Assembly (NCBI GenBank): GCA_019670725.1
Contig: AP024629.1
Coordinates: 4,154,001-4,218,000 of the forward strand
DNA: 64,000 nt
Source: Alphaproteobacteria bacterium SO-S41
GTDB lineage: Bacteria; Pseudomonadota; Alphaproteobacteria; Micropepsales; Micropepsaceae
Direction: 5' to 3'
Both the position numbers and the translations under genes were made by a program. This document shows positions 2,749 to 13,052 of this stretch, piece by piece; position 1 is the stretch's first letter; every line of letters starts with the position of its first letter. The notes below the pieces were generated by a model, which worked only from the letters and a program-made list of their open reading frames with translations, made no database searches and was not told the DNA's origin.

Positions 2749-2798
2749 TTCCTCCCGGGATGGGCCTAGGGACGCTCACTGATCTTTCGGAACGCCAC

Positions 2799-3161
2799 AT
2801 GAAGTCGATCGCCAGCGATCTACCGACCAAGACCTTGATGCCGGGGACAAGCCTGCAGCTTGGATCCGACAAATTCGCCGACCGCCTGAAGAAGATCCGC
2901 ATCAAGCGGAAACTGACCCAGGCCGAGTTGGCCCGGGTTGCCGGCATGCAGCCGTCAGCCATTGCACATTTCGAAGCTGATCGACGAAAGCCGGGCTATG
3001 ACAGCCTGATCGCGCTCGCGAACGGATTGATGGTCTCCATCGATACCCTATTGGGAGTTGAGGCGCGCACGACCGCGTTTCGCCACGAAGAAATGCTTTC
3101 GGCTAAGGACCGCGCGCATATTCAAGGGATCATCGACATGATGACGGAAGACAGGAAATAG
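2799..3161 (+). CDS. XRE-family helix-turn-helix transcriptional regulator
   Basis: A 120-residue DNA-binding protein. A Cro/C1-type helix-turn-helix spans about residues 20-75 (LKKIRIKRKLTQAELARVAG, then PSAIAHFEADRRKPGYDSL and a hydrophobic IDTLLG end). The C-terminal tail of about 45 residues has no recognisable ligand domain. The start at 2799 (MKSIASD) is preceded by CGGAAC; an ATG at 2760 in the same frame would add 13 residues and lies just after the hairpin, so the start is uncertain. It sits alone between a receptor gene and a convergent oxidoreductase gene. Target unknown. Confidence 0.85.
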   Translation: MKSIASDLPTKTLMPGTSLQLGSDKFADRLKKIRIKRKLTQAELARVAGMQPSAIAHFEADRRKPGYDSLIALANGLMVSIDTLLGVEARTTAFRHEEMLSAKDRAHIQGIIDMMTEDRK

Positions 3162-3172
3162 CGAAGCTGCCG

Positions 3173-4363
3173 CTAGGCTGACAGCGCCTCCGCAAAATGC
3201 GGAATCAAGTGCGCACCGGTCAGTTCAATGCTGCGAGTGACCGCCGCATGCGGAATCGAGCCGAACTGCATAAGGCACATCATGCGGTTGGTGCCGATGG
3301 CGCGATAAGCCTCGAGCTTGCGGCGGCAATGCTCGACATCGCCGATCACAACCGAGTCGAGTTCTTCCAGGACTTCATGCGCCTCCGCGTTGGAGACAAC
3401 TTCGTTGCGCGCCATGCGCTTCAGGAGAGCAATCACCGGCAGTTCGTCAGGGCCGATTTCGAGGCTGGTATCGTCCTCACCGGTAAGGGCGGCGGTGGAG
3501 CGCGGCGAGTTGGGATGCAGACCGGCGCGGATGGCGTCGTACCAAACGGCACGTGGCACCTTGAAGACGATCGGCGCCGCATGAACGTACCAGAGGGCCG
3601 ACCATGCGGCGCCGTTGCGGATTGCCTGGTCACGGGTCTCTGCGACATGGACGAAGGTGAAGATGCCTTTCTCGGGATTGACGAACTTGCCCGCGGGATC
3701 GCAGACGGCGAGGCCCTGTTCATGCTCCTGGATCATCTGGCCCATGAACGAGACTGGACTGAGCAGCGTGGTCCCCAGACAGCCGACACCCATTTCCCCG
3801 GCCATCCGAAAGGACTCGGGGCTGCCGCAGGTTTGCCATAGGCGGGGATGGGGTTTCTGCAAGGGCTTGGGCACACAAGCACGGGCGGGAATGGAGAAGT
3901 CGGGGCCTGCCCATGACACCTCGTCTTCGGTCCAGAAGCGCGAGATGATCGAGAAACCTTCACGCACCTGGGCGCGCGCAAGTTCGGGATCGACGCCGAA
4001 CGTCTCCCATTCCTTGCCGCCGGACTTGGCGAGACCGAGCTCGAGCCGGCCGCCGCTGAGGAGGTCGAGCGTCGCGGCGGCCTCGGCGACCCGGTAGGGA
4101 TTGTTGATGCGGAACGGCGCGAGCACGCCGGCATGGCCGACATGGATGCGCCTGGTGCGCATGGCGATGGCGGTGAGCATGACGGCGGGGGCAGAGGAGT
4201 AGCTGAACTCCGGCGCGCTGTGATGCTCGACCTCCCACCAGACGTCGAAGCCGGCCTCATCCGCCGCCGCGGCCTGAATGAGCGTGTCGCGGAAGAGCGC
4301 GGCCTCGTCGTCGGCGCCCCAGGGCGCGGCACGCTGGATCTCGCAGAAAATGTCGAACTTCAT
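3173..4363 (-). CDS. LLM-class flavin-dependent oxidoreductase (luciferase-like)
   Basis: A 396-residue TIM-barrel protein of the bacterial luciferase family. These enzymes use reduced FMN or F420; in an organism of this type FMNH2 and a monooxygenase reaction are likelier. Family features: EHHSAPEF near residue 47, the strand VGHAGVLAPF, and NNPYRVAEAAATLDLLSGGR near residue 88, followed by LELGLAKSGG. The start ATG at 4363 has GAGGG upstream. It is separated from the cyclase gene by about 100 bases that hold one ATAAC-N4-GTTAT site, so it probably has its own promoter within the same regulon. Substrate unknown; its reaction could precede the cyclase/hydrolase step next door. Confidence 0.88.
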   Translation of the reverse strand: MKFDIFCEIQRAAPWGADDEAALFRDTLIQAAAADEAGFDVWWEVEHHSAPEFSYSSAPAVMLTAIAMRTRRIHVGHAGVLAPFRINNPYRVAEAAATLDLLSGGRLELGLAKSGGKEWETFGVDPELARAQVREGFSIISRFWTEDEVSWAGPDFSIPARACVPKPLQKPHPRLWQTCGSPESFRMAGEMGVGCLGTTLLSPVSFMGQMIQEHEQGLAVCDPAGKFVNPEKGIFTFVHVAETRDQAIRNGAAWSALWYVHAAPIVFKVPRAVWYDAIRAGLHPNSPRSTAALTGEDDTSLEIGPDELPVIALLKRMARNEVVSNAEAHEVLEELDSVVIGDVEHCRRKLEAYRAIGTNRMMCLMQFGSIPHAAVTRSIELTGAHLIPHFAEALSA

Positions 4364-4401
4364 GAGGCCCTCGCGAACTTGGAGTGACGACGCACTTTTT
4401 C

Positions 4402-4415
4402 ATAACGTTTGTTAT
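4402..4415. promoter_or_regulatory. Candidate operator, ATAAC-N4-GTTAT
   Basis: Perfect 5-4-5 inverted repeat ATAACGTTTGTTAT, 39 bases upstream of the LLM oxidoreductase start. The same half-sites recur three times in the receptor/TetR intergenic region at 8260-8384. Likely binding site of the TetR protein encoded at 8421. Confidence 0.7.
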
Positions 4416-4465
4416 ATAAATTCGCCACAGGAAATTGGGCTCGCGGACGGCGCGCGGTCATGCCG

Positions 4466-5407
4466 CTAAAGGACGGCGATCGGGTTGACGGGCGAGCCGG
4501 TGCCGCGCTCGATCCGCAGCGGCGCAACGCTGAGCAGGAAGCTCCAACGGTTCTCAACGGCGCAGGCGGCAGCGAGATCCTCAAGCCAGAGATTGTCGAG
4601 CAAATGCAGACCGATGCCGACCAGTGCGCACATATGGATCGGCACTGGCCAGCCTTCATAGCGCGCGCCGCCAGGCAGCGGGTCATGAACGCCGTCGCCA
4701 CCGAGAACGGTGACGCGGCGCGTGTGCAGCCATTCGGCGCATTCGGGATGCAGGCCGGCGAGCGCCTGACCATCGGCCGTTCCGGTCGGCACCGCTTCGC
4801 GGCGCGGATCGCGGCCGGTGCGGATAAGGACGAGATCGCCCTCGCCGACCGTCACGCCATGCGATCGTTCGGCCGCTTCGAGGTCGGCGGGCGTAATCTC
4901 CGCGGCGGGGTCGAGGAAGGGCACGCCGGCAACGCGCGGCAAGTCGAGCAGGATGCCCCGCCCGACAATGCCGTCCTTCGCCGCCATGATGGAATTGCGG
5001 CGCGCGCCGGTGCTCTTCACATCGGTCGCGGGCCAGCCGTTATACATCTGGCCCTGCACGAAGACGTGGCAGAGCGCGTCGATATGGGTGGAGGCCATGC
5101 CGTGAAACGCGATGCCGATATAGTCCATCGCCGTTTCCAGCCCATGGCCGCCGGGCACACAGGGGTCATCGCCCGCCACCACCATGTGATGCTGCGCGGG
5201 GAAGGGGTTTTCGGGATGCGGGTGGACCGGAAAGTCGCGGGCGCAACTGACGGCGCGGCCGGATTTGACGTGCGTCGCCGCCGCGGCGATCCGTTCGGGC
5301 GTGAGATAGTTGAGCGTGCCGCGCTCGTCGTCCTTGCCCCAGCGGCCCCAATTCTTGACGCGCTCGAACAGCGCCGCGACGTCGGTTCCGGTCCAGGTCT
5401 TCGCCAC
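4466..5407 (-). CDS. Cyclase-family (PF04199) metal-dependent hydrolase
   Basis: A 313-residue protein of the family that includes kynurenine formamidase, isatin hydrolase and polyketide cyclase-like proteins, which hydrolyse amide or lactam bonds with a Zn or Mn site. The metal motif appears as HGMASTHIDALCHVF near residue 100, a variant of HxGTHxDxPxH. Further family segments are GEGDLVLIRTGRD near residue 205 and LGGDGVHDPLP near residue 250. The GTG start is preceded by GAAAGGA. The gene lies 22 bases after the VOC gene in the leftward receptor-VOC-cyclase order, suggesting one transcript. Substrate unknown. Confidence 0.88.
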   Translation of the reverse strand: MAKTWTGTDVAALFERVKNWGRWGKDDERGTLNYLTPERIAAAATHVKSGRAVSCARDFPVHPHPENPFPAQHHMVVAGDDPCVPGGHGLETAMDYIGIAFHGMASTHIDALCHVFVQGQMYNGWPATDVKSTGARRNSIMAAKDGIVGRGILLDLPRVAGVPFLDPAAEITPADLEAAERSHGVTVGEGDLVLIRTGRDPRREAVPTGTADGQALAGLHPECAEWLHTRRVTVLGGDGVHDPLPGGARYEGWPVPIHMCALVGIGLHLLDNLWLEDLAAACAVENRWSFLLSVAPLRIERGTGSPVNPIAVL

Positions 5408-5429
5408 GTCGGGGTCCTTTCAAGGCGCT

Positions 5430-5927
5430 CTAATCGGCGTTCAGCGCTTCATTCGCGCGGGAATGGCGGATGCCGGGTTGGAGTTCGATCAACTCGATCA
5501 GCGTGCCGTCGGGGTCGCGCGCGCAGACACAGCCGATAACGCCGAGCGATTTGGGCTGGGGCTCGATCAGCGCGAAGGTCGGGATGCCCCGGGCCTTCAG
5601 GTCCGCGGCGCAGGCGTGCACATTCTTCACCCGAAACGCGATGATACGCGGCGGCACCTCGCCGGCGAGCGGGGGCGGCACGCGGGGCTGCAGCCATTGG
5701 ATGATGTCGAGCATCGGGCCGTCGGGGTCGGCGGGCAGGTTCATCAGCACACCACGACCCTTGGGCTTCGTCAGCCCGAAGAGCGAGCCCAGATAATCCG
5801 GCCAATCGACCGTGCGGCGGTCGTTCAGAACCGCAAAGCCGAGCGCTTGGTAGAACGCGATCGTGCGATCGAGATCGGTCGCGTTGATGACGGTGTGATA
5901 GAGTCGTTCGATCGACCAGCCGGACAT
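5430..5927 (-). CDS. VOC / glyoxalase-fold protein
   Basis: A 165-residue vicinal-oxygen-chelate protein. The betaalphabetabetabeta repeat is visible as LYHTVINATDLDRTIAFYQ near residue 7 and, in the second half, IIAFRVKNVHACAADLKARG and DPDGTLIELIEL. Members are lyases, isomerases, extradiol dioxygenases or binding proteins with a divalent metal; the candidate ligands here are His10 and a C-terminal Glu in IELIEL. The ATG at 5927 was chosen because family similarity begins there; the open frame to its left reads through the neighbouring receptor gene in another frame. It starts 10 bases after the receptor stop. Confidence 0.85.
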   Translation of the reverse strand: MSGWSIERLYHTVINATDLDRTIAFYQALGFAVLNDRRTVDWPDYLGSLFGLTKPKGRGVLMNLPADPDGPMLDIIQWLQPRVPPPLAGEVPPRIIAFRVKNVHACAADLKARGIPTFALIEPQPKSLGVIGCVCARDPDGTLIELIELQPGIRHSRANEALNAD

Positions 5928-5937
5928 GACCGCCCCT

Positions 5938-8172
5938 TCAGAAATGCGCGCCGATGCGCACGCCGAAGGTGCGGGGCGGGAGATAGGTGTAGTTGTCGAT
6001 GCCGAAGCCGAGGCCGATCGTGTTCGATTGCAGCCCGTCATTGGCGATGACGTCGGCATCGCCGGCATTGCGCAGGAAGGCCGCGACCGTCCAGCGGTCG
6101 CCCGGATCGGTCCAGGTGAGGCCGAGATCGATGATCGAATAGGCCTTCTGGCGGTCGTAGCTGGTGTTGGCCGACAGGAAATAGAGATCGCCCGACCAGA
6201 AGGCATCGACGCGCGGCGTCACCGTACCGAACGAGGTCTCGATGGCGTATTCGGCGCCGAGGGCGAAGGTGTATTCCGGCGTCTGGACAAGGCGGTGTCC
6301 GGCGAAATTGGCGGGGACGCCGAGACGATTGTCGACGGTGACGTACTCGTCGTATTTCGCCTCCATCAAGGAGAGGCCCGCATTCACCCGCAGCGCATCG
6401 GTCAGATAGAAGACCGCTTCCGCCTCGAAGCCCGTGACATGCGCTTTGCCGGCATTGTCGATGCGCGAGCCCGTGATGTCCTGAACGAAGACCTGCATGT
6501 CCTCGATATCGGTGTGGTAGATCGAAGCATTCAGCGTGACCGCGCCGTTCGCGAGCGTCGACTTGAAGCCGCCTTCATAGGAGGTCACGGTCTCGGGATC
6601 GTAGATGCCGGGGAAATTGCCGACCAACTCGCCGCCCGCGAGATAGCCGGTGGCGACGCTGGCATAGATCATGAAGTCGGGCGTCGCCTGATAGGCGAGG
6701 CCGAACTTGCCGGTCAGCTTGTTCCAGCTTGGCTCCACATTCTTGGACTGGAAGAGCGTGAAGGCGAAATCCGGGATGTGGTAATTGAGGAAATCGACGA
6801 CGTGCTTCTCGTCCGCGGTGTAGCGGAGGCCGAGCGTGATAGTCAGCGGGATTTCAGCCGAGGTCTTGGCGAGATCATAGTCGAGCTGCGCGAAGGCTGC
6901 CCATGACGTGGTTTCGATATCGCCGCCGTTCGTGAACACGAAACCGGTGCCGAAGGGGGCATTCAGGCCGGTATCGACGAACTCGAAGCCCTGATTGACC
7001 TTCTCGTTAAAATAGAACCCGCCGACAATCCAGCGCAACGCTGCGCTGTCGTCGTTGGAGGCGAGGCGGATCTCCTGGCTGAACTGCTGGCTGTCCATCG
7101 TCCAATAGTTGAGATGGGCGATATCGAGAGAGGTGCTGTCGGCATCGTTGGTCTGGAACCAGGTACCCTCGGTATAGGCGGTGATCGAGGTTAGTGTGAC
7201 GCCCCCCATGTCCCAATCGAGCGTTGCGGAATACGTGCTGCCGTCCTGATCGAAGGTCTCGGGATAGCCTGCCGAAGTATGACGTGGGTCGGGGTCATAG
7301 ACCTGACCGATAAAGCGGCCCCGATTGACCGCCGGCGCGGTGCCCCAGGCGAGTTTTGTCGCCGTCGGCGCGCCGTTGGAACTCGTGCTGGCGGAAAGCA
7401 GCAGATCGACATCGGGTGAGAACTTGAAGAGCAACTGACCGCGTAGGAGGTAAAAGTCCTGTGCGTCGCCGTCATGCGTCGCCGAGGCGAGGGTCGAGCT
7501 GTTCTTCTGATAGGCATCATGTTCGGCGTAAACGCCGGTGATACGAGCGAAAACCTGAACCCCGCTTTCGTCCGTCGCGATCGGCAGGTTCGCCCAACCC
7601 CGGATCGTGCGAGCGTCATAATTGCCGATCATCGCGTCGATATAGCCGCCGAGTTCGTCATCAGGCTTGTTGGTGATGACGTTCACCGATCCGCCGATCG
7701 AGTTGCGGCCGTAGAGCGTACCCTGGGGCCCCCGCAGCACTTCGATCCGCGAGACATCAAAGAATTCGGGGTCGATCGCCGTCGAGCGCGCCATGTAGAC
7801 GCCATCGACGCTGTAGGCGACGGGCGAGTCGCCGCCGCTGGTCGTGTTCTGGCTGGAGAGGCCCCGCAGCGTGATCACGTGCTCGCCGCCGGTGACGCCA
7901 GAGCCGAAGCGGAGCGAGGGCACGCGGGCGCTGAGGCTCTCGAAGCCGACAATCGCCTGCTCATCCAGCCGGTCGCCACCGATGGCGCTGATCGCCAACG
8001 GCACCTTCTGGACGTTCTCCTTGCGCCGCTGCGCTGTAACGATGACGCTCTCGTCGGCCCGTTCAACGCTCGCTTCCGGTGAAGCCACGGGGGCGTCCTG
8101 AGCAACGGCGGCATTCAGCAGCGCGACACCAGCTGCGTGGGCAAGCAACGCAACGCTCAAACGGTTGAGCAT
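5938..8172 (-). CDS. TonB-dependent outer-membrane receptor
   Basis: A 744-residue receptor. An N-terminal signal peptide ends near AVAQD (residue 25), a TonB-box-like ESVIVTAQRR follows, and the plug has RGPQGTLYGRNSIGGSVNV near residue 145. The barrel closes with GVRIGAHF, ending on Phe. The ATG has GGGAGGG upstream at good spacing. It is the first gene of a leftward set with VOC and cyclase genes and faces a TetR gene across about 250 bases that hold three copies of an ATAAC-N4-GTTAT-type site. The arrangement suggests import of the compound that the LLM, cyclase and VOC enzymes convert. No siderophore gene is near, so a carbon source is likelier than iron. Confidence 0.95.
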   Translation of the reverse strand: MLNRLSVALLAHAAGVALLNAAVAQDAPVASPEASVERADESVIVTAQRRKENVQKVPLAISAIGGDRLDEQAIVGFESLSARVPSLRFGSGVTGGEHVITLRGLSSQNTTSGGDSPVAYSVDGVYMARSTAIDPEFFDVSRIEVLRGPQGTLYGRNSIGGSVNVITNKPDDELGGYIDAMIGNYDARTIRGWANLPIATDESGVQVFARITGVYAEHDAYQKNSSTLASATHDGDAQDFYLLRGQLLFKFSPDVDLLLSASTSSNGAPTATKLAWGTAPAVNRGRFIGQVYDPDPRHTSAGYPETFDQDGSTYSATLDWDMGGVTLTSITAYTEGTWFQTNDADSTSLDIAHLNYWTMDSQQFSQEIRLASNDDSAALRWIVGGFYFNEKVNQGFEFVDTGLNAPFGTGFVFTNGGDIETTSWAAFAQLDYDLAKTSAEIPLTITLGLRYTADEKHVVDFLNYHIPDFAFTLFQSKNVEPSWNKLTGKFGLAYQATPDFMIYASVATGYLAGGELVGNFPGIYDPETVTSYEGGFKSTLANGAVTLNASIYHTDIEDMQVFVQDITGSRIDNAGKAHVTGFEAEAVFYLTDALRVNAGLSLMEAKYDEYVTVDNRLGVPANFAGHRLVQTPEYTFALGAEYAIETSFGTVTPRVDAFWSGDLYFLSANTSYDRQKAYSIIDLGLTWTDPGDRWTVAAFLRNAGDADVIANDGLQSNTIGLGFGIDNYTYLPPRTFGVRIGAHF

Positions 8173-8259
8173 GACGGCATCCCTCCCTTGACGCCCACTC
8201 TTGCGGTGCGCCGTTCCTGGACGCCGTGGTCATGCCCGGCGTCTTCTTCCGTCAATTAC

Positions 8260-8273
8260 GTAACATACGTTCT
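8260..8273. promoter_or_regulatory. Degenerate operator copy, GTAAC-N4-GTTCT
   Basis: GTAACATACGTTCT matches ATAAC-N4-GTTAT at 8 of 10 half-site positions. It is the copy nearest the receptor start (87 bases upstream). Confidence 0.45.
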
Positions 8274-8292
8274 GAAAAATGAAAGCGTTTGC

Positions 8293-8306
8293 ATAACAGA
8301 TGTTAT
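8293..8306. promoter_or_regulatory. Candidate operator, ATAAC-N4-GTTAT
   Basis: Perfect inverted repeat ATAACAGATGTTAT in the receptor/TetR divergent promoter region, with the same half-sites and spacing as the site at 4402. Confidence 0.75.
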
Positions 8307-8370
8307 AAATGTCGCACCCTGCATCGGCCGGGCCGGGCTGTTTGACAAGGTGCGCCGACGCCCCTAGCTC

Positions 8371-8384
8371 ATAACGCTTGTTGT
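8371..8384. promoter_or_regulatory. Candidate operator, ATAAC-N4-GTTGT
   Basis: ATAACGCTTGTTGT, one mismatch to the perfect copies, 36 bases upstream of the TetR start. Placed to allow autoregulation. Confidence 0.65.
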
Positions 8385-8420
8385 AATTTCATCGGCTGGC
8401 GTGACCGGCCGGGCAAGACC

Positions 8421-9020
8421 ATGGCGAAGCACGCAGACCACGAGAAACGCCGGGCCGCCTTCGCCGAGGCGGCTTTCAACATATTAGCCCGCGACGGTCT
8501 TGCCGGCCTCACCGTGCGCGATGTCGCCAGAGAGGCCGGGTTCACGACCGGGGCGTTGGTCCACTATTTCCCGTCCAAGAGCGAACTGTTTGTCGCAGCG
8601 TCCGAACATGCGGCGTTGGTGGTGCGGCCGCGCATGGAGCAGGACGAGGTCGCCTATCCCGGCCTCGAAGGCGTGCGGCGCGTCATCTACGACGCGCTTC
8701 CCCGTACGCCCGAGGCGCGCGCGCTGTGGAGCGTCTGGCTGGTCTTCTGGGACCGCGCCAAAGTCGATCCCGTCATCGGCAAGCTCGCGCGCGAGCGTTA
8801 TGCCGAATGGCACGGCCGCTTGGCGCGGTTGCTTGGCCGCGCCCAGGAGGCAGGGGACCTGAGCCCGAAGGCGGATCCCGAACTCCTCGCGCAGACCGCG
8901 ACAATTCTCGTCGACGGGATCGCGGTCCAGGCGCTCAGGACCAGCGCTCGTCTCTCACCGGCGCGGCAGAAAGCCTTGATCGATGCCTGGATCGACTCTC
9001 TGCCGAAAAAGAGCGGCTAA
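8421..9020 (+). CDS. TetR/AcrR-family transcriptional regulator
   Basis: A 199-residue repressor type. The N-terminal helix-turn-helix spans about residues 10-56 (FNILARDGLAGLTVRDVARE, then FTTGALVHYFPSKSELF). The remainder is a helical ligand-binding and dimerisation domain similar in look to BetI-like TetR proteins (WSVWLVFWDRA near residue 110). It is divergent from the receptor-VOC-cyclase set. Three ATAAC-type inverted repeats lie between them and a fourth before the LLM gene, so it very likely represses the module and itself until an inducer binds. The regulator-site link is inferred from position. Its stop lies 2 bases from the convergent receptor gene. Confidence 0.92.
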   Translation: MAKHADHEKRRAAFAEAAFNILARDGLAGLTVRDVAREAGFTTGALVHYFPSKSELFVAASEHAALVVRPRMEQDEVAYPGLEGVRRVIYDALPRTPEARALWSVWLVFWDRAKVDPVIGKLARERYAEWHGRLARLLGRAQEAGDLSPKADPELLAQTATILVDGIAVQALRTSARLSPARQKALIDAWIDSLPKKSG

Positions 9021-9022
9021 AC

Positions 9023-11410
9023 CTAGAACGACGAGCTCAACTCGATACCGATCGTACGTGGGGTAAGCGGGGTCACTTCCGGGTCGGATCGCATCCGGAA
9101 GGGATTGCCGAAAGCAAAGGTGTTCGCGGCATTGTTGGTCAGGTTGTTCACGAAGAGGGTGATCTTGTAGGAGTCGATTTCGAGTCCGGCGGACAGTCGC
9201 GCGGTGAAATAGCCGCCCATGTCGAACACGCGTTGCTGATCAAAGGTCAGGAACGAATGCCCGACATAACTGATGTCGCCCTGGATCCGGAGCACCGCAT
9301 TCGCCCAGAGCGTCGGGTGATAATCGAACAGCGCGGACGAAGAGATCTTCGGCGCGCCGGGCAGGCCGAGATCGCGACCGGCCATCGGGATCTCGCTCGA
9401 CTTTGTAAGGTCGGATTCCTGAAAGATCGCGGCGACGCCGAGGTCGAGGTCCTCCGAGGCACGCCAGTTCACCTCGAACTCCAGACCGCGTGAAATGCCG
9501 TCACCGACGTTCAAGGTATAGGGCAGGCCCGACGCGCGGTACTGGTCGCTCTGAATATCCTGCCACCCCGCATAGAACGCTGCGACGCGAAGCTGCAGCG
9601 TGTCGTGAAGTGCGCGAATCTTGGCGCCGGCCTCGTAGCTCCAGATCGTGTCGGCGCGATATTCGCGCGGGATGCCGCCGCGCGTGTCGAACATCTCCGC
9701 CAGCCGTCCGCTGGTGTTGAAACCGCCGGCGCGATAGCCGCCGGCCACCTGTAGGTAGAGAATGATGTCGTCGGTCGGATCGTATTCGAGGACCGCCTTG
9801 GGCGACGCGCCATACGCGACGTGCCGTCCCGAGAACGAGCGGTTGCCGGCCTGTTCCCGCACGATCGAGCGGGTGTCGAAGGTGTTCTGGAAGACCCGGA
9901 TCCCGGCCGACAGCGACAGCTTGTCGGTGAGATCGGCGGAGACTTCACCGTAAAGCGAGGTCTCGCTGCGCTTGTCCATGCGCCGCTCGGAATACTCTTC
10001 GCGCTGGAACGGAAAGATGCGGGTAAGCAGGTTCGATGAGGCGGTTTCACCCTGCGAGGCATAGGCGCCGATGAACCAGTCGATGGTCTGCCCGCGCCGC
10101 GAAACCAGTGTGGCTTCGAGGGCCGTGAGGCTGATCTCCTTGGAGTCGTCGAACAGGCCGACGCCGCGGATGCCGAAGCTGCCCATCACAGGCGTCGCGT
10201 CGTAGCGGCTCTGAAAGCTGTGCGACAAATGGGTCGCCGACAGCGTGAGCGATCCCCAATCCCCGCTGCCCTCAAGCGCGAGCCGCCCCTGGACGAAATC
10301 ATTGTCGTGCGGCTCGTGGACGACCTGATCGCGCACCCGCGCCGGAAGACGGCGCAGGCCATAATGCGTGTCGGCCGTGTTGATCGACTGGTAGGCGCCG
10401 CCCAGCGTCACCTGCCAATGCTCGTCGAGCAGCAGGGTGAGGGCGGCGCGGCCGCCCCACCGAACCGAGTTGTTGACCTTGCGGCGCTCAGAGCCGATGT
10501 CGTCGATATAGCCGCCCTGGGCCTCGCGATAAATGACCCCGCGAAAGCCCAAACGCTCATCTATGAGAGGAATATTGGCGGCGACGACAGCATCGTTGTT
10601 GAGAGCACCGCCCTGCGTTTGCGACAGGGACGATTTCATGTATCCGCCGAACGCCGTCAGGTCGGGCGCGTTCGGGATGATCCGGATCACGCCGCCGATG
10701 GCGCCGCCGCCATAGAGCGCGCCCTGCGGCCCGCGCAGAACCTCGACCCGCGCGATATCGACGAGCCGCAGATCGGGGTCAGGCGCGTAATAGGCGATCT
10801 GGCTGGTGTCGAGATAGATCGCGACCGGCGACTGCGCGAGGCCGGTAAACGCACCGTCGGAGATACCGCGCAGGATGACCTTGTCGCGTCCCGGCCCGAG
10901 ATTCGTAACGGTCATGCCGGCGACCTGGCCGACGAGGTCGTGCATATCGGCAAGCCGCCGGTTGGCAATGACGCCGCCGCCGACCGCCGTCAGTGCGTAA
11001 GGCGTCGAGCCGGGCAGATCGGGGCGTCGCGTGGCGGTCACGACGACTTCCTCCACCGGAGCCATCGGAACGCTCGTGGCTACCGCCGCGGTTTCTGCCG
11101 GCTTCAGGCTGACGATTACCGTCGCCGGATCCGGCATGGCATAGGTGCAATTGGACTCGCCGAGGATTGCAGCCAGCGCCTCGCTTACGGTCATGCCGGC
11201 CGAGGTCGTGCCGGCCGGACCCATGCAAAGCTGAAGGGAGCCGCCGACCGAAAGCTTGGCCTGCAAGGCGTAGTCGATCAGCGCGTGCTCAATCGTCTCT
11301 CCGGCCGCCTGGTTGGCAGGCGAGGACGGCGCGGCGGCAGCGGCAACTGAAAGGAGCGACGCTGCCAGAAAAATCGGCGCGTAGTGCGTGAACGATCCTG
11401 CACTCCCCAC
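9023..11410 (-). CDS. TonB-dependent transducer-type receptor with N-terminal STN domain
   Basis: A 795-residue receptor with signal sequence (residues 1-27), then a secretin/TonB short N-terminal domain at about 35-105 (IEHALIDYALQAKLSVGG, MTVSEALAAILGESNC). That domain contacts FecR-type proteins and marks receptors that signal to an ECF sigma factor. The TonB box EEVVVTATRR follows, then the plug with RGPQGALYGGGAIGGVIRI. The barrel ends GIELSSSF. Start is GTG. It lies 27 bases after fecR-like and downstream of the sigma gene, giving sigma-FecR-receptor order on one strand. In this layout ligand binding releases the sigma factor to raise receptor synthesis. The ligand could be a ferric siderophore, haem or a glycan. 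Confidence 0.95.
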   Translation of the reverse strand: MGSAGSFTHYAPIFLAASLLSVAAAAAPSSPANQAAGETIEHALIDYALQAKLSVGGSLQLCMGPAGTTSAGMTVSEALAAILGESNCTYAMPDPATVIVSLKPAETAAVATSVPMAPVEEVVVTATRRPDLPGSTPYALTAVGGGVIANRRLADMHDLVGQVAGMTVTNLGPGRDKVILRGISDGAFTGLAQSPVAIYLDTSQIAYYAPDPDLRLVDIARVEVLRGPQGALYGGGAIGGVIRIIPNAPDLTAFGGYMKSSLSQTQGGALNNDAVVAANIPLIDERLGFRGVIYREAQGGYIDDIGSERRKVNNSVRWGGRAALTLLLDEHWQVTLGGAYQSINTADTHYGLRRLPARVRDQVVHEPHDNDFVQGRLALEGSGDWGSLTLSATHLSHSFQSRYDATPVMGSFGIRGVGLFDDSKEISLTALEATLVSRRGQTIDWFIGAYASQGETASSNLLTRIFPFQREEYSERRMDKRSETSLYGEVSADLTDKLSLSAGIRVFQNTFDTRSIVREQAGNRSFSGRHVAYGASPKAVLEYDPTDDIILYLQVAGGYRAGGFNTSGRLAEMFDTRGGIPREYRADTIWSYEAGAKIRALHDTLQLRVAAFYAGWQDIQSDQYRASGLPYTLNVGDGISRGLEFEVNWRASEDLDLGVAAIFQESDLTKSSEIPMAGRDLGLPGAPKISSSALFDYHPTLWANAVLRIQGDISYVGHSFLTFDQQRVFDMGGYFTARLSAGLEIDSYKITLFVNNLTNNAANTFAFGNPFRMRSDPEVTPLTPRTIGIELSSSF

Positions 11411-11437
11411 GGCTGCCTGATTTTGTCCGGATTGCCC

Positions 11438-12394
11438 CTATCGAGCCGTCAGTATGACGTCGTCCCCGGAGAATTGCACTGAAATTGGCGCAAATTGAGC
11501 AAGCCGCCTCAGCATGGCCGGCTCGGCATCGATCTGCAGGACGGCGGACACCTGAATGGACGCCGCGCTGTCCGTGACCTTTACGGGGTGGCCGAAATAG
11601 CGGCTGAGATCGGCCGCGACCGCGGTGAGCGGTGCGTTCTTGTAGATGAGATTGCCGTCCTGCCAGGCGAAGGCGTCGGCGGCATCCACCTGCTCGACCG
11701 TCCCGGCCGCCCCGCCTTCGGCCAGCGATAACTGGGTGCCAGCTTCCAGCGTATTGACCGCACGGGTGGTCAGATCCTCGACCACGACACTGCCGCGACG
11801 CACGGTAACGGTCAGATGCTTGTCGTGCTCGACGACGTTGAATTCCGTCCCGGTGACCCGGATGTCATGCCCACCCGCCGTGACATGGAACGGCCGGCTG
11901 TGATCCGAGGCGACATCGAACGACGCCTCGCCGGACGTCAAGATTACATCGCGCCGGCCGGATTGAAGGGCGACGCTGAGCTCCGTCGACCGGTTGAGCG
12001 ACACCTGCGTTCCGTCGCCGAGCTTGACCACGCGGGTCGATGTCGCATCGGTCTTGAAGCTGCCCGCCAACTGCTCGCCTGCCGGCTGACGCACGACAAC
12101 GACCGCCACGGCCACCGCCGCGGCAGCCGCCAGGGCGCCGCCGATCCAGAAGCCGCGCCGCGCCGGAGCCCTTCGGATCGACGGCAGGGGGATAGCGGCC
12201 GGAAGGTTCAGCGCCTCCGGGAAGTCCTCAACCTCGATCCAGGCCGCCTCGACCGCGTTGTAGGCCGCCTGGTTGGCGGGATCGGCCTCCAGCCATGTGG
12301 TGAAAGCCTGCCAGTCCTCGACAGGCGCGTCTTCCTGCAGCCTGGCGAACCATGCGGCGGCGGCCTCGGCGGGGCTTTGGGGCGCGGGCGTCAT
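11438..12394 (-). CDS. FecR-family inner-membrane regulator of the ECF sigma factor
   Basis: A 318-residue protein. The N-terminal cytoplasmic DUF4880-like segment (AAAWFARLQEDAPVEDWQAF and LEADPANQAAYNAVEAAW) would hold the sigma factor. One membrane helix follows at about residues 80-102 (alanine- and valine-rich). The periplasmic FecR domain spans about 110-215 (VKLGDGTQVSLNRSTEL, GEASFDVASDHSRPF, GTEFNV), and the C-terminus resembles the STN-like DUF4974 part (PLTAVAADLSRYFG). It relays the receptor signal to the sigma factor upstream. Gap to the sigma gene is about 100 bases, to the receptor 27 bases. Confidence 0.93.
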   Translation of the reverse strand: MTPAPQSPAEAAAAWFARLQEDAPVEDWQAFTTWLEADPANQAAYNAVEAAWIEVEDFPEALNLPAAIPLPSIRRAPARRGFWIGGALAAAAAVAVAVVVVRQPAGEQLAGSFKTDATSTRVVKLGDGTQVSLNRSTELSVALQSGRRDVILTSGEASFDVASDHSRPFHVTAGGHDIRVTGTEFNVVEHDKHLTVTVRRGSVVVEDLTTRAVNTLEAGTQLSLAEGGAAGTVEQVDAADAFAWQDGNLIYKNAPLTAVAADLSRYFGHPVKVTDSAASIQVSAVLQIDAEPAMLRRLAQFAPISVQFSGDDVILTAR

Positions 12395-12497
12395 TGAAAG
12401 GCAACCAAGGCCGAAGCCTTCTCCATCAGTGGATAATGGTTAGACGCCACCGCGCCGGAAACGCCGCAACGAATTTGCCGGGAGGCGCGGAATTCCC

Positions 12498-13052
12498 TCA
12501 TCTGACATCTCCCAGTTTGATCGCCAGATGCTTCAAGGCGAGGCTGATATGCTTTTCGACGGCACTCTTTGAAATCCCCATGCGGGCGGCCGTTTCGGCA
12601 TGGGAAAGCCCGGAAAACTTATGCAGCTGGAAGGCGCGCCGGGTCGGCAGTGCCAGGGTTGCCAGGGCTGAAACCACCAATGTCAGACGCTGCCGCGCGA
12701 TCACCGTGCTTTCCGCATCGGCAATCGTCGCGACTTCCTGACCGCCCAGCTCGATCGTCTGGCTCCGGCGCCACTCGGCGTCGCGTGCCTGGGCGCGGTG
12801 TTGCGCACGCAGCCGGTCGAGCATGACGTTGCTTGCTAAGCGGTAGAGGAAGGCGAGCGGGCTCGCGATCTCCTGGCCGGGATCGACCGCCGACACCTTC
12901 AGGAAAAGGTCCTGCACGAGATCGTCGAGGTCGGCATCGCTGCCACGGCGGGCGCGCAGGAAGCGCCTCAGCTCAGCCTGATGTTCAAGGTAGGTCGCTA
13001 CCAGAGATGCTGGATGGTGCCCACTCAACCTTGCAGTCCCGCCCCGCGACAC
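12498..13052 (-). CDS. ECF-type RNA polymerase sigma factor (FecI-like)
   Basis: A 184-residue sigma-70 family protein with only regions 2 and 4. Region 2 is seen as DADLDDLVQDLFLKV and SPLAFLYRLASNVMLDRLR (residues 40-80); region 4 as LPTRRAFQLHKFSGLSHAET followed by RMGISKSAVEKHISLALKHL (130-180). It should direct transcription of the receptor gene at 9023 and perhaps others when freed by the adjacent FecR. The GTG at 13052 gives the longest frame, but a TTG at about 13030 is possible, so the start is uncertain. Confidence 0.92.
   Translation of the reverse strand: MSRGGTARLSGHHPASLVATYLEHQAELRRFLRARRGSDADLDDLVQDLFLKVSAVDPGQEIASPLAFLYRLASNVMLDRLRAQHRAQARDAEWRRSQTIELGGQEVATIADAESTVIARQRLTLVVSALATLALPTRRAFQLHKFSGLSHAETAARMGISKSAVEKHISLALKHLAIKLGDVR

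Follow-up and report, generated by a model that had tools for sequence, protein, structure and literature searches.

What links a luciferase-like monooxygenase, a metal-dependent hydrolase, a glyoxalase-fold protein and an outer-membrane receptor whose genes stand beside a TetR-family regulator? The question comes from a window of 64 kb, positions 4,154,001-4,218,000 of a complete 4.44 Mb genome whose nearest matches carry the label Alphaproteobacteria; here a first-pass annotation had noticed copies of the palindrome ATAAC-N4-GTTAT around these genes and taken them to mark a TetR regulon. The comparisons described below suggest that the locus is probably a TetR-repressed catabolic module, with dedicated local uptake and oxidation.

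Genes of the module

The regulator gene lies on the plus strand (8421..9020) and encodes 199 aa, with an N-terminal TetR_N helix-turn-helix (PF00440, 4e-13) and a separate ligand domain of the BetI C-terminal type (PF13977, 2e-25), as expected of a TetR-family repressor. The other genes are on the minus strand. They encode a TonB-dependent outer-membrane receptor of 744 aa (5938..8172; PF07715 and PF00593), a VOC/glyoxalase-fold protein of 165 aa (5430..5927; PF00903), a PF04199 metal-dependent hydrolase, or "cyclase", of 313 aa (4466..5407; 2e-20) and a luciferase-like flavin monooxygenase, LLM, of 396 aa (3173..4363; PF00296, 1.5e-47). There is no flavin reductase among the module genes, and no downstream pathway genes are found in the cluster. 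Adjoining the module, a TonB receptor gene, a FecR-like gene and an ECF sigma gene (9023-13052) form a separate FecIRA-like set.

The hydrolase carries the HxDxxxH motif, and its residues H108-x-D110-x3-H114 are invariant in 16 sequences. The solved structure closest to it, PDB 5ibz, is itself of a protein listed without a known role; the isatin hydrolases (PDB 4j0n and 5nna) have the PF04199 domain and the motif in common with it, but match it weakly (E about 1e-5) and over the C-terminal part only. The AlphaFold model of this protein is poor (pLDDT 63). That of the VOC protein is better (pLDDT 82), and its fold matches are general glyoxalase-family proteins, with no specific function. Two residues of the VOC protein, H11 and E145, are conserved, and we take them to be those that normally provide the first and last metal ligands in this fold. 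Where the second module begins, however, no His is conserved among the VOC sequences; therefore, the metal site may be altered.

Four putative operators and the question of chance

The four copies of the palindrome were found at the positions, and with the mismatches, that had been described, and all of them are intergenic, as had been claimed. The sites have no strand assigned. O1 (4397..4420, core 4402-4415; ATAACGTTTGTTAT) has no mismatches and lies in the gap upstream of the LLM gene, a stretch of 102 bp (4364-4465) between LLM and cyclase, 38 bp from the LLM start codon. The other three occupy the gap of 248 bp (8173-8420) between the receptor and TetR genes: O2 (8255..8278, core 8260-8273; GTAACATACGTTCT), with two mismatches, and O3 (8288..8311, core 8293-8306; ATAACAGATGTTAT), with none, are in the receptor promoter, 33 bp or about three helical turns apart, and O4 (8366..8389, core 8371-8384; ATAACGCTTGTTGT), with one mismatch, is 36 bp from the TetR start codon and is presumed to be the autoregulation site of tetR. 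A TATAAC sequence overlaps O1 and could be the -10 element of LLM, and another overlapping O3 could also be a -10 element; a generic promoter scan gave no match at either.

Can such sites arise by chance? At up to two mismatches, the palindrome occurs five times in the window against 3.7 expected, which is not significant, and at 213 places in the whole genome, so that this count, by itself, is uninformative about the reality of the sites. The exact sequence is a different matter: the complete genome, of 4,443,179 bases, has two copies, and both are within the cluster. Many copies inside coding regions elsewhere, which the first-pass annotation had named as evidence against its reading, are thus not what the exact sequence gives. 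Eight places with one mismatch occur elsewhere in the genome, six of them within predicted genes. The stricter core AAC-R-NN-Y-GTT occurs five times in the window, and four of these are O1-O4; in the sister loci L060, L061 and L062, all its occurrences (three, four and three, respectively) are in the corresponding two gaps. The genome has four other TAACRNNYGTTA places, which are intergenic and deviate in the outer bases.

A position weight matrix (PWM) trained on 32 sites, every one of them from a different genus than the window, was then scanned across the window, and its four best positions are O1 (35.6), O3 (30.4), O2 (26.2) and O4 (15.2), in this order. The next-best position scores 8.7, and the maximum in ten Markov-simulated sequences of 64 kb is 8.6; O4 is far under the other three, yet clearly over this background. 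The matrix refines the operator to approximately TTTWYATAAC-R-NN-Y-GTTATRWAAA, in which the four spacer bases are constrained at their edges (R...Y) and the AT-rich flanks contribute.

Conservation of the cluster and its regulator

The search for the same genes and the same site in other genomes, proposed along with the original claim, found both, with the sites in the corresponding promoter gaps. The complete set, with TetR divergent from receptor-VOC-PF04199-LLM, is present in L060, L061 and L062 (70-85% identity), in L131 (43-67% identity), and in L176 and L177, while in L168-L175 it is rearranged or partial, some of these contigs stopping inside the cluster. Close relatives have the sites between receptor and TetR and before LLM; where no gaps separate VOC, cyclase and LLM, the site precedes VOC instead. 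The pair in the receptor promoter keeps its spacing of 33 bp in the window (8260/8293), L060 (6110/6143), L062 (7068/7101), L176 (6822/6855) and L177 (6272/6305), and is spaced by 34 bp in L061, which also has a counterpart of O4 at position 7023. It is this spacing, together with the PWM score, that makes O2 credible despite its two mismatches. These comparisons are not fully independent, because a single family supplies most of the orthologous clusters and many are from MAGs.

Two loci show parts of the arrangement. In G309, an exact operator pair (L212:6105-6151) stands between a TetR gene and an LLM gene (70%) on a separate contig, and its spacing, 33 bp, is that of the receptor-promoter pair. 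In L063, from a MAG labelled Deltaproteobacteria, genes for LLM (51%), PF04199 (61%) and VOC (41%) are adjacent (8109-10909), with no operator and no TetR match beside them; therefore, the enzyme trio exists under other control too.

A TetR orthologue (E <= 1e-25) accompanies the cluster in every one of the 15 sampled genomes that carry it, and the 11 relatives that lack the cluster lack the orthologue too. All strict ATAACRNNYGTTAY places of G352 (a complete genome), G320, G331 and G334 are inside the cluster, and the cluster-less relatives have zero or one such place each; G123, G315 and G316 have strict sites outside the cluster as well, and G300 has no site by the strict pattern. The recognition-helix region of the TetR protein, GFTTGALVHY, is kept (as TTGALVHY) in most copies, even where identity over the whole protein has dropped to about 40%, and this fits the conservation of the operator. 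It deviates in the TetR of L175 and in the second TetR of L170 and L171 (SVGAVVHY or SVGAIVHY). In the clusters of L170 and L171, two TetR genes adjoin, with TTGALVHY and SVGAVVHY in this region.

Two ways of removing TetR from the picture have to be considered. The four sites might be chance palindromes in AT-richer intergenic DNA, as the near-expected count at two mismatches would allow; the restriction of the exact sites to the cluster in 4.44 Mb and the ranking by a matrix from other genera rule this reading out for practical purposes, and the conserved spacing speaks against it too, leaving it next to no probability. Alternatively, a different regulator may use the sites, and candidates are close by, namely an XRE protein (2760-3161) and the FecR/sigma pair (11438-13052). 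However, none of these three proteins has a match in the sister loci, whereas TetR accompanies the cluster in all 15 sampled genomes, and such a regulator seems very improbable; the XRE gene was rejected, as it is not conserved alongside the cluster. The palindromic sites O2-O4 in the promoter region of tetR and its divergent neighbor, kept in relatives, are what is expected of a TetR repressor. Site uniqueness, conserved position and spacing, and the joint occurrence of TetR and cluster all support the proposal of a TetR regulon over LLM, PF04199 hydrolase, VOC and receptor.

A probable wider regulon in relatives

Does the operator control more than these genes? In the large sister genus it also precedes a gene for a 535 aa FMO-type, type-I BVMO-like protein, divergent from a second VOC gene (sites at L170 2640 and L223 10874). 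This protein has a Baeyer-Villiger-like fingerprint, FTGEVLYTAAWP, with Tyr in place of His. A second LLM lies behind the operator in L168, L173 and L175, and other sites in relatives precede genes for an alpha/beta-hydrolase (Abhydrolase_3, esterase), an SDR and receptors, with ECH and MFS genes nearby in these clusters. We infer from the operator-linked genes of the relatives a toolkit that oxidises ketones and then cleaves esters or lactones. To describe the locus as a "complete small catabolic system" is to overstate the case: the cluster is without a downstream pathway or a flavin reductase, and in relatives it is extended by BVMO-like, esterase, SDR, ECH and transporter genes.

A perfect operator core also occurs within the ribD coding sequence of two genomes, G315 (L216:6405-6418) and G316 (L218:6206-6219). 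On the ribD strand it reads ATAACATCTGTTAT and ATAACACCTGTTAT, at the identical place between the two domains and in unusually AT-rich codons; a comparison with eight further ribD genes, all from relatives, found it in none of them. Possibly, it serves as an internal promoter that ties flavin supply to the flavin monooxygenases.

What the enzymes might do

The likeliest chemistry appears to be oxidation of a ketone to a lactone or ester, followed by hydrolysis, because the sites of relatives also precede the BVMO-like flavoprotein, the esterase, the SDR and the second LLM. Baeyer-Villiger chemistry in the module itself is our leading guess, held at slightly less than even confidence. There are precedents in other bacteria. 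EGO55_13860 of Caenibius tardaugens performs Baeyer-Villiger oxidation of progesterone (PMC12239570). It is a close homologue of an LLM encoded on plasmid pNL2, whose start, MKFSIIYE, is the one encoded by the cloning primer listed for EGO55_13860. In Sphingobium AntQ-1, an LLM and an adjacent hydrolase are proposed, in the account of that pathway, to form and then open a lactone (PMC9836352). The module LLM has 30% identity to the pNL2 LLM over 98% of the sequence, and another LLM of the same genome (L186) is slightly closer to it, at 34%; because the pNL2 enzyme is nearer to this paralogue, homology does not establish Baeyer-Villiger activity for the module LLM.

A regulon that is real but serves other chemistry therefore deserves serious weight, as a substantial minority possibility. 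The LLM might hydroxylate, cleave C-S or C-N bonds, or oxidise an aldehyde, and the PF04199 enzyme might, like isatin hydrolase, cut a bond of the amide or formamide type. The LLM scores under every NCBIfam subfamily cut-off, PDB gave isatin hydrolases as the sole characterised relatives of the hydrolase, and the nearer paralogue weakens the comparison with pNL2. PF04199 members as a group hydrolyse a variety of bonds. Arguing the other way are the operator that BVMO-like flavoprotein, SDR and esterase genes have in common in relatives, and the LLM/BVMO pairing described for the pdc cluster of C. tardaugens (PMC12239570). A role in detoxification or signalling, with TetR sensing a toxic ketone or quinone that LLM, VOC protein and hydrolase inactivate, and with some other role for the receptor, would suit the frequency of TetR and VOC families in resistance and the fosfomycin-resistance and antibiotic-binding proteins among the VOC fold neighbors. 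Against this, a dedicated outer-membrane receptor indicates import rather than exclusion, and the ECH, SDR and esterase genes of relatives look catabolic; we consider such a role unlikely.

Relation to known systems

TetR-controlled catabolic islands are a familiar kind of system, to which the present module adds a well-supported example. The pdc progesterone-degradation cluster is the closest in composition: in an alphaproteobacterium, it unites a TetR-family gene with genes for a type-I BVMO and for an LLM whose Baeyer-Villiger activity has been demonstrated. As described, however, it has a LuxR regulator and is without PF04199, VOC or receptor genes, and the description reports no operators (PMC12239570). 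Here, no BVMO or LuxR gene is found among the module genes and their neighbors, so that the pdc combination of BVMO, LLM, TetR and LuxR does not recur; the closest BVMO-like genes of this genome lie elsewhere, and the LLM of the window shares only about 30% identity with the homologue on pNL2 to which the pdc enzyme was compared. The 9,10-anthraquinone genes of AntQ-1 likewise pair an LLM (type II BVMO) with a neighboring hydrolase, for which lactone opening is proposed, and a second BVMO-hydrolase pair lies nearby, but the hydrolase beside the LLM is of the alpha/beta type and not PF04199, and the account of these genes reports no TetR or shared operator (PMC9836352). In regulation, the module resembles local TetR-family repressors with a BetI-type C-terminal domain, which have an N-terminal HTH, a divergent gene and, in the promoter gap shared with it, palindromic operators that also lie close to the repressor's own start.

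Is the module new? No paper in the open-access literature was found to describe LLM, PF04199, VOC and receptor genes together under TetR, and to this extent the label "undescribed" is apt; it has to be tempered in view of the comparable LLM/BVMO/TetR cluster for progesterone, pdc (PMC12239570). Nor was ATAAC-N4-GTTAT found in that literature as the operator of a TetR protein, the matches being CRP/FNR proteins and a LexA paper; similar TAAC-N4-GTTA motifs belong to HcpR2/NssR of the CRP/FNR family (PMC1274295).

Proposed mechanism and outlook

What rests on sequence is the uniqueness of the sites, their conservation and spacing, the co-occurrence of the genes and the protein families; repression, the inducer, the order of reactions and the class of substrate are inferred, and the following scheme is conditional in these respects. 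A TetR dimer would occupy four sites with the sequence ATAAC-R-NN-Y-GTTAT or a near match to it, two of them 33 bp apart over the receptor promoter, one before tetR and one before LLM, and would thus block the promoters of receptor-VOC-hydrolase, of LLM and of its own gene. Once a little of the substrate has entered, it, or a compound formed by LLM or hydrolase, would bind the BetI-type ligand domain; TetR would then quit the DNA, and receptor and enzymes would rise together. The receptor may take in a bulky hydrophobic molecule, which the LLM would oxygenate with reduced flavin, insertion of the Baeyer-Villiger type at a ketone being the likeliest reaction; the hydrolase would cleave the resulting lactone or ester, or another acyl bond, and the VOC protein may bind or isomerise an intermediate.

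Tentatively, then, we picture an uncharacterised pathway that has spread chiefly within a single alphaproteobacterial family. A ketonic natural product, imported by a TonB-dependent receptor, would be handled by an LLM acting as Baeyer-Villiger enzyme, coupled to a lactone hydrolase of the PF04199 family and to a VOC enzyme, all under one TetR operator, and the ribD operator of two species could tie in flavin supply. The operator and its marked gene set allow a catabolic regulon to be defined in testable form in bacteria seen largely as genomes and metagenome assemblies, and they frame two enzymes of this clade, the PF04199 hydrolase and the LLM, that have no assigned function. The TetR protein could act as a biosensor for substrate discovery. 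The site, rare and local, can help to collect the remaining pathway genes from one genome after another, and in relatives it already points to a BVMO-like gene, an esterase, an SDR, a second LLM and extra receptors.
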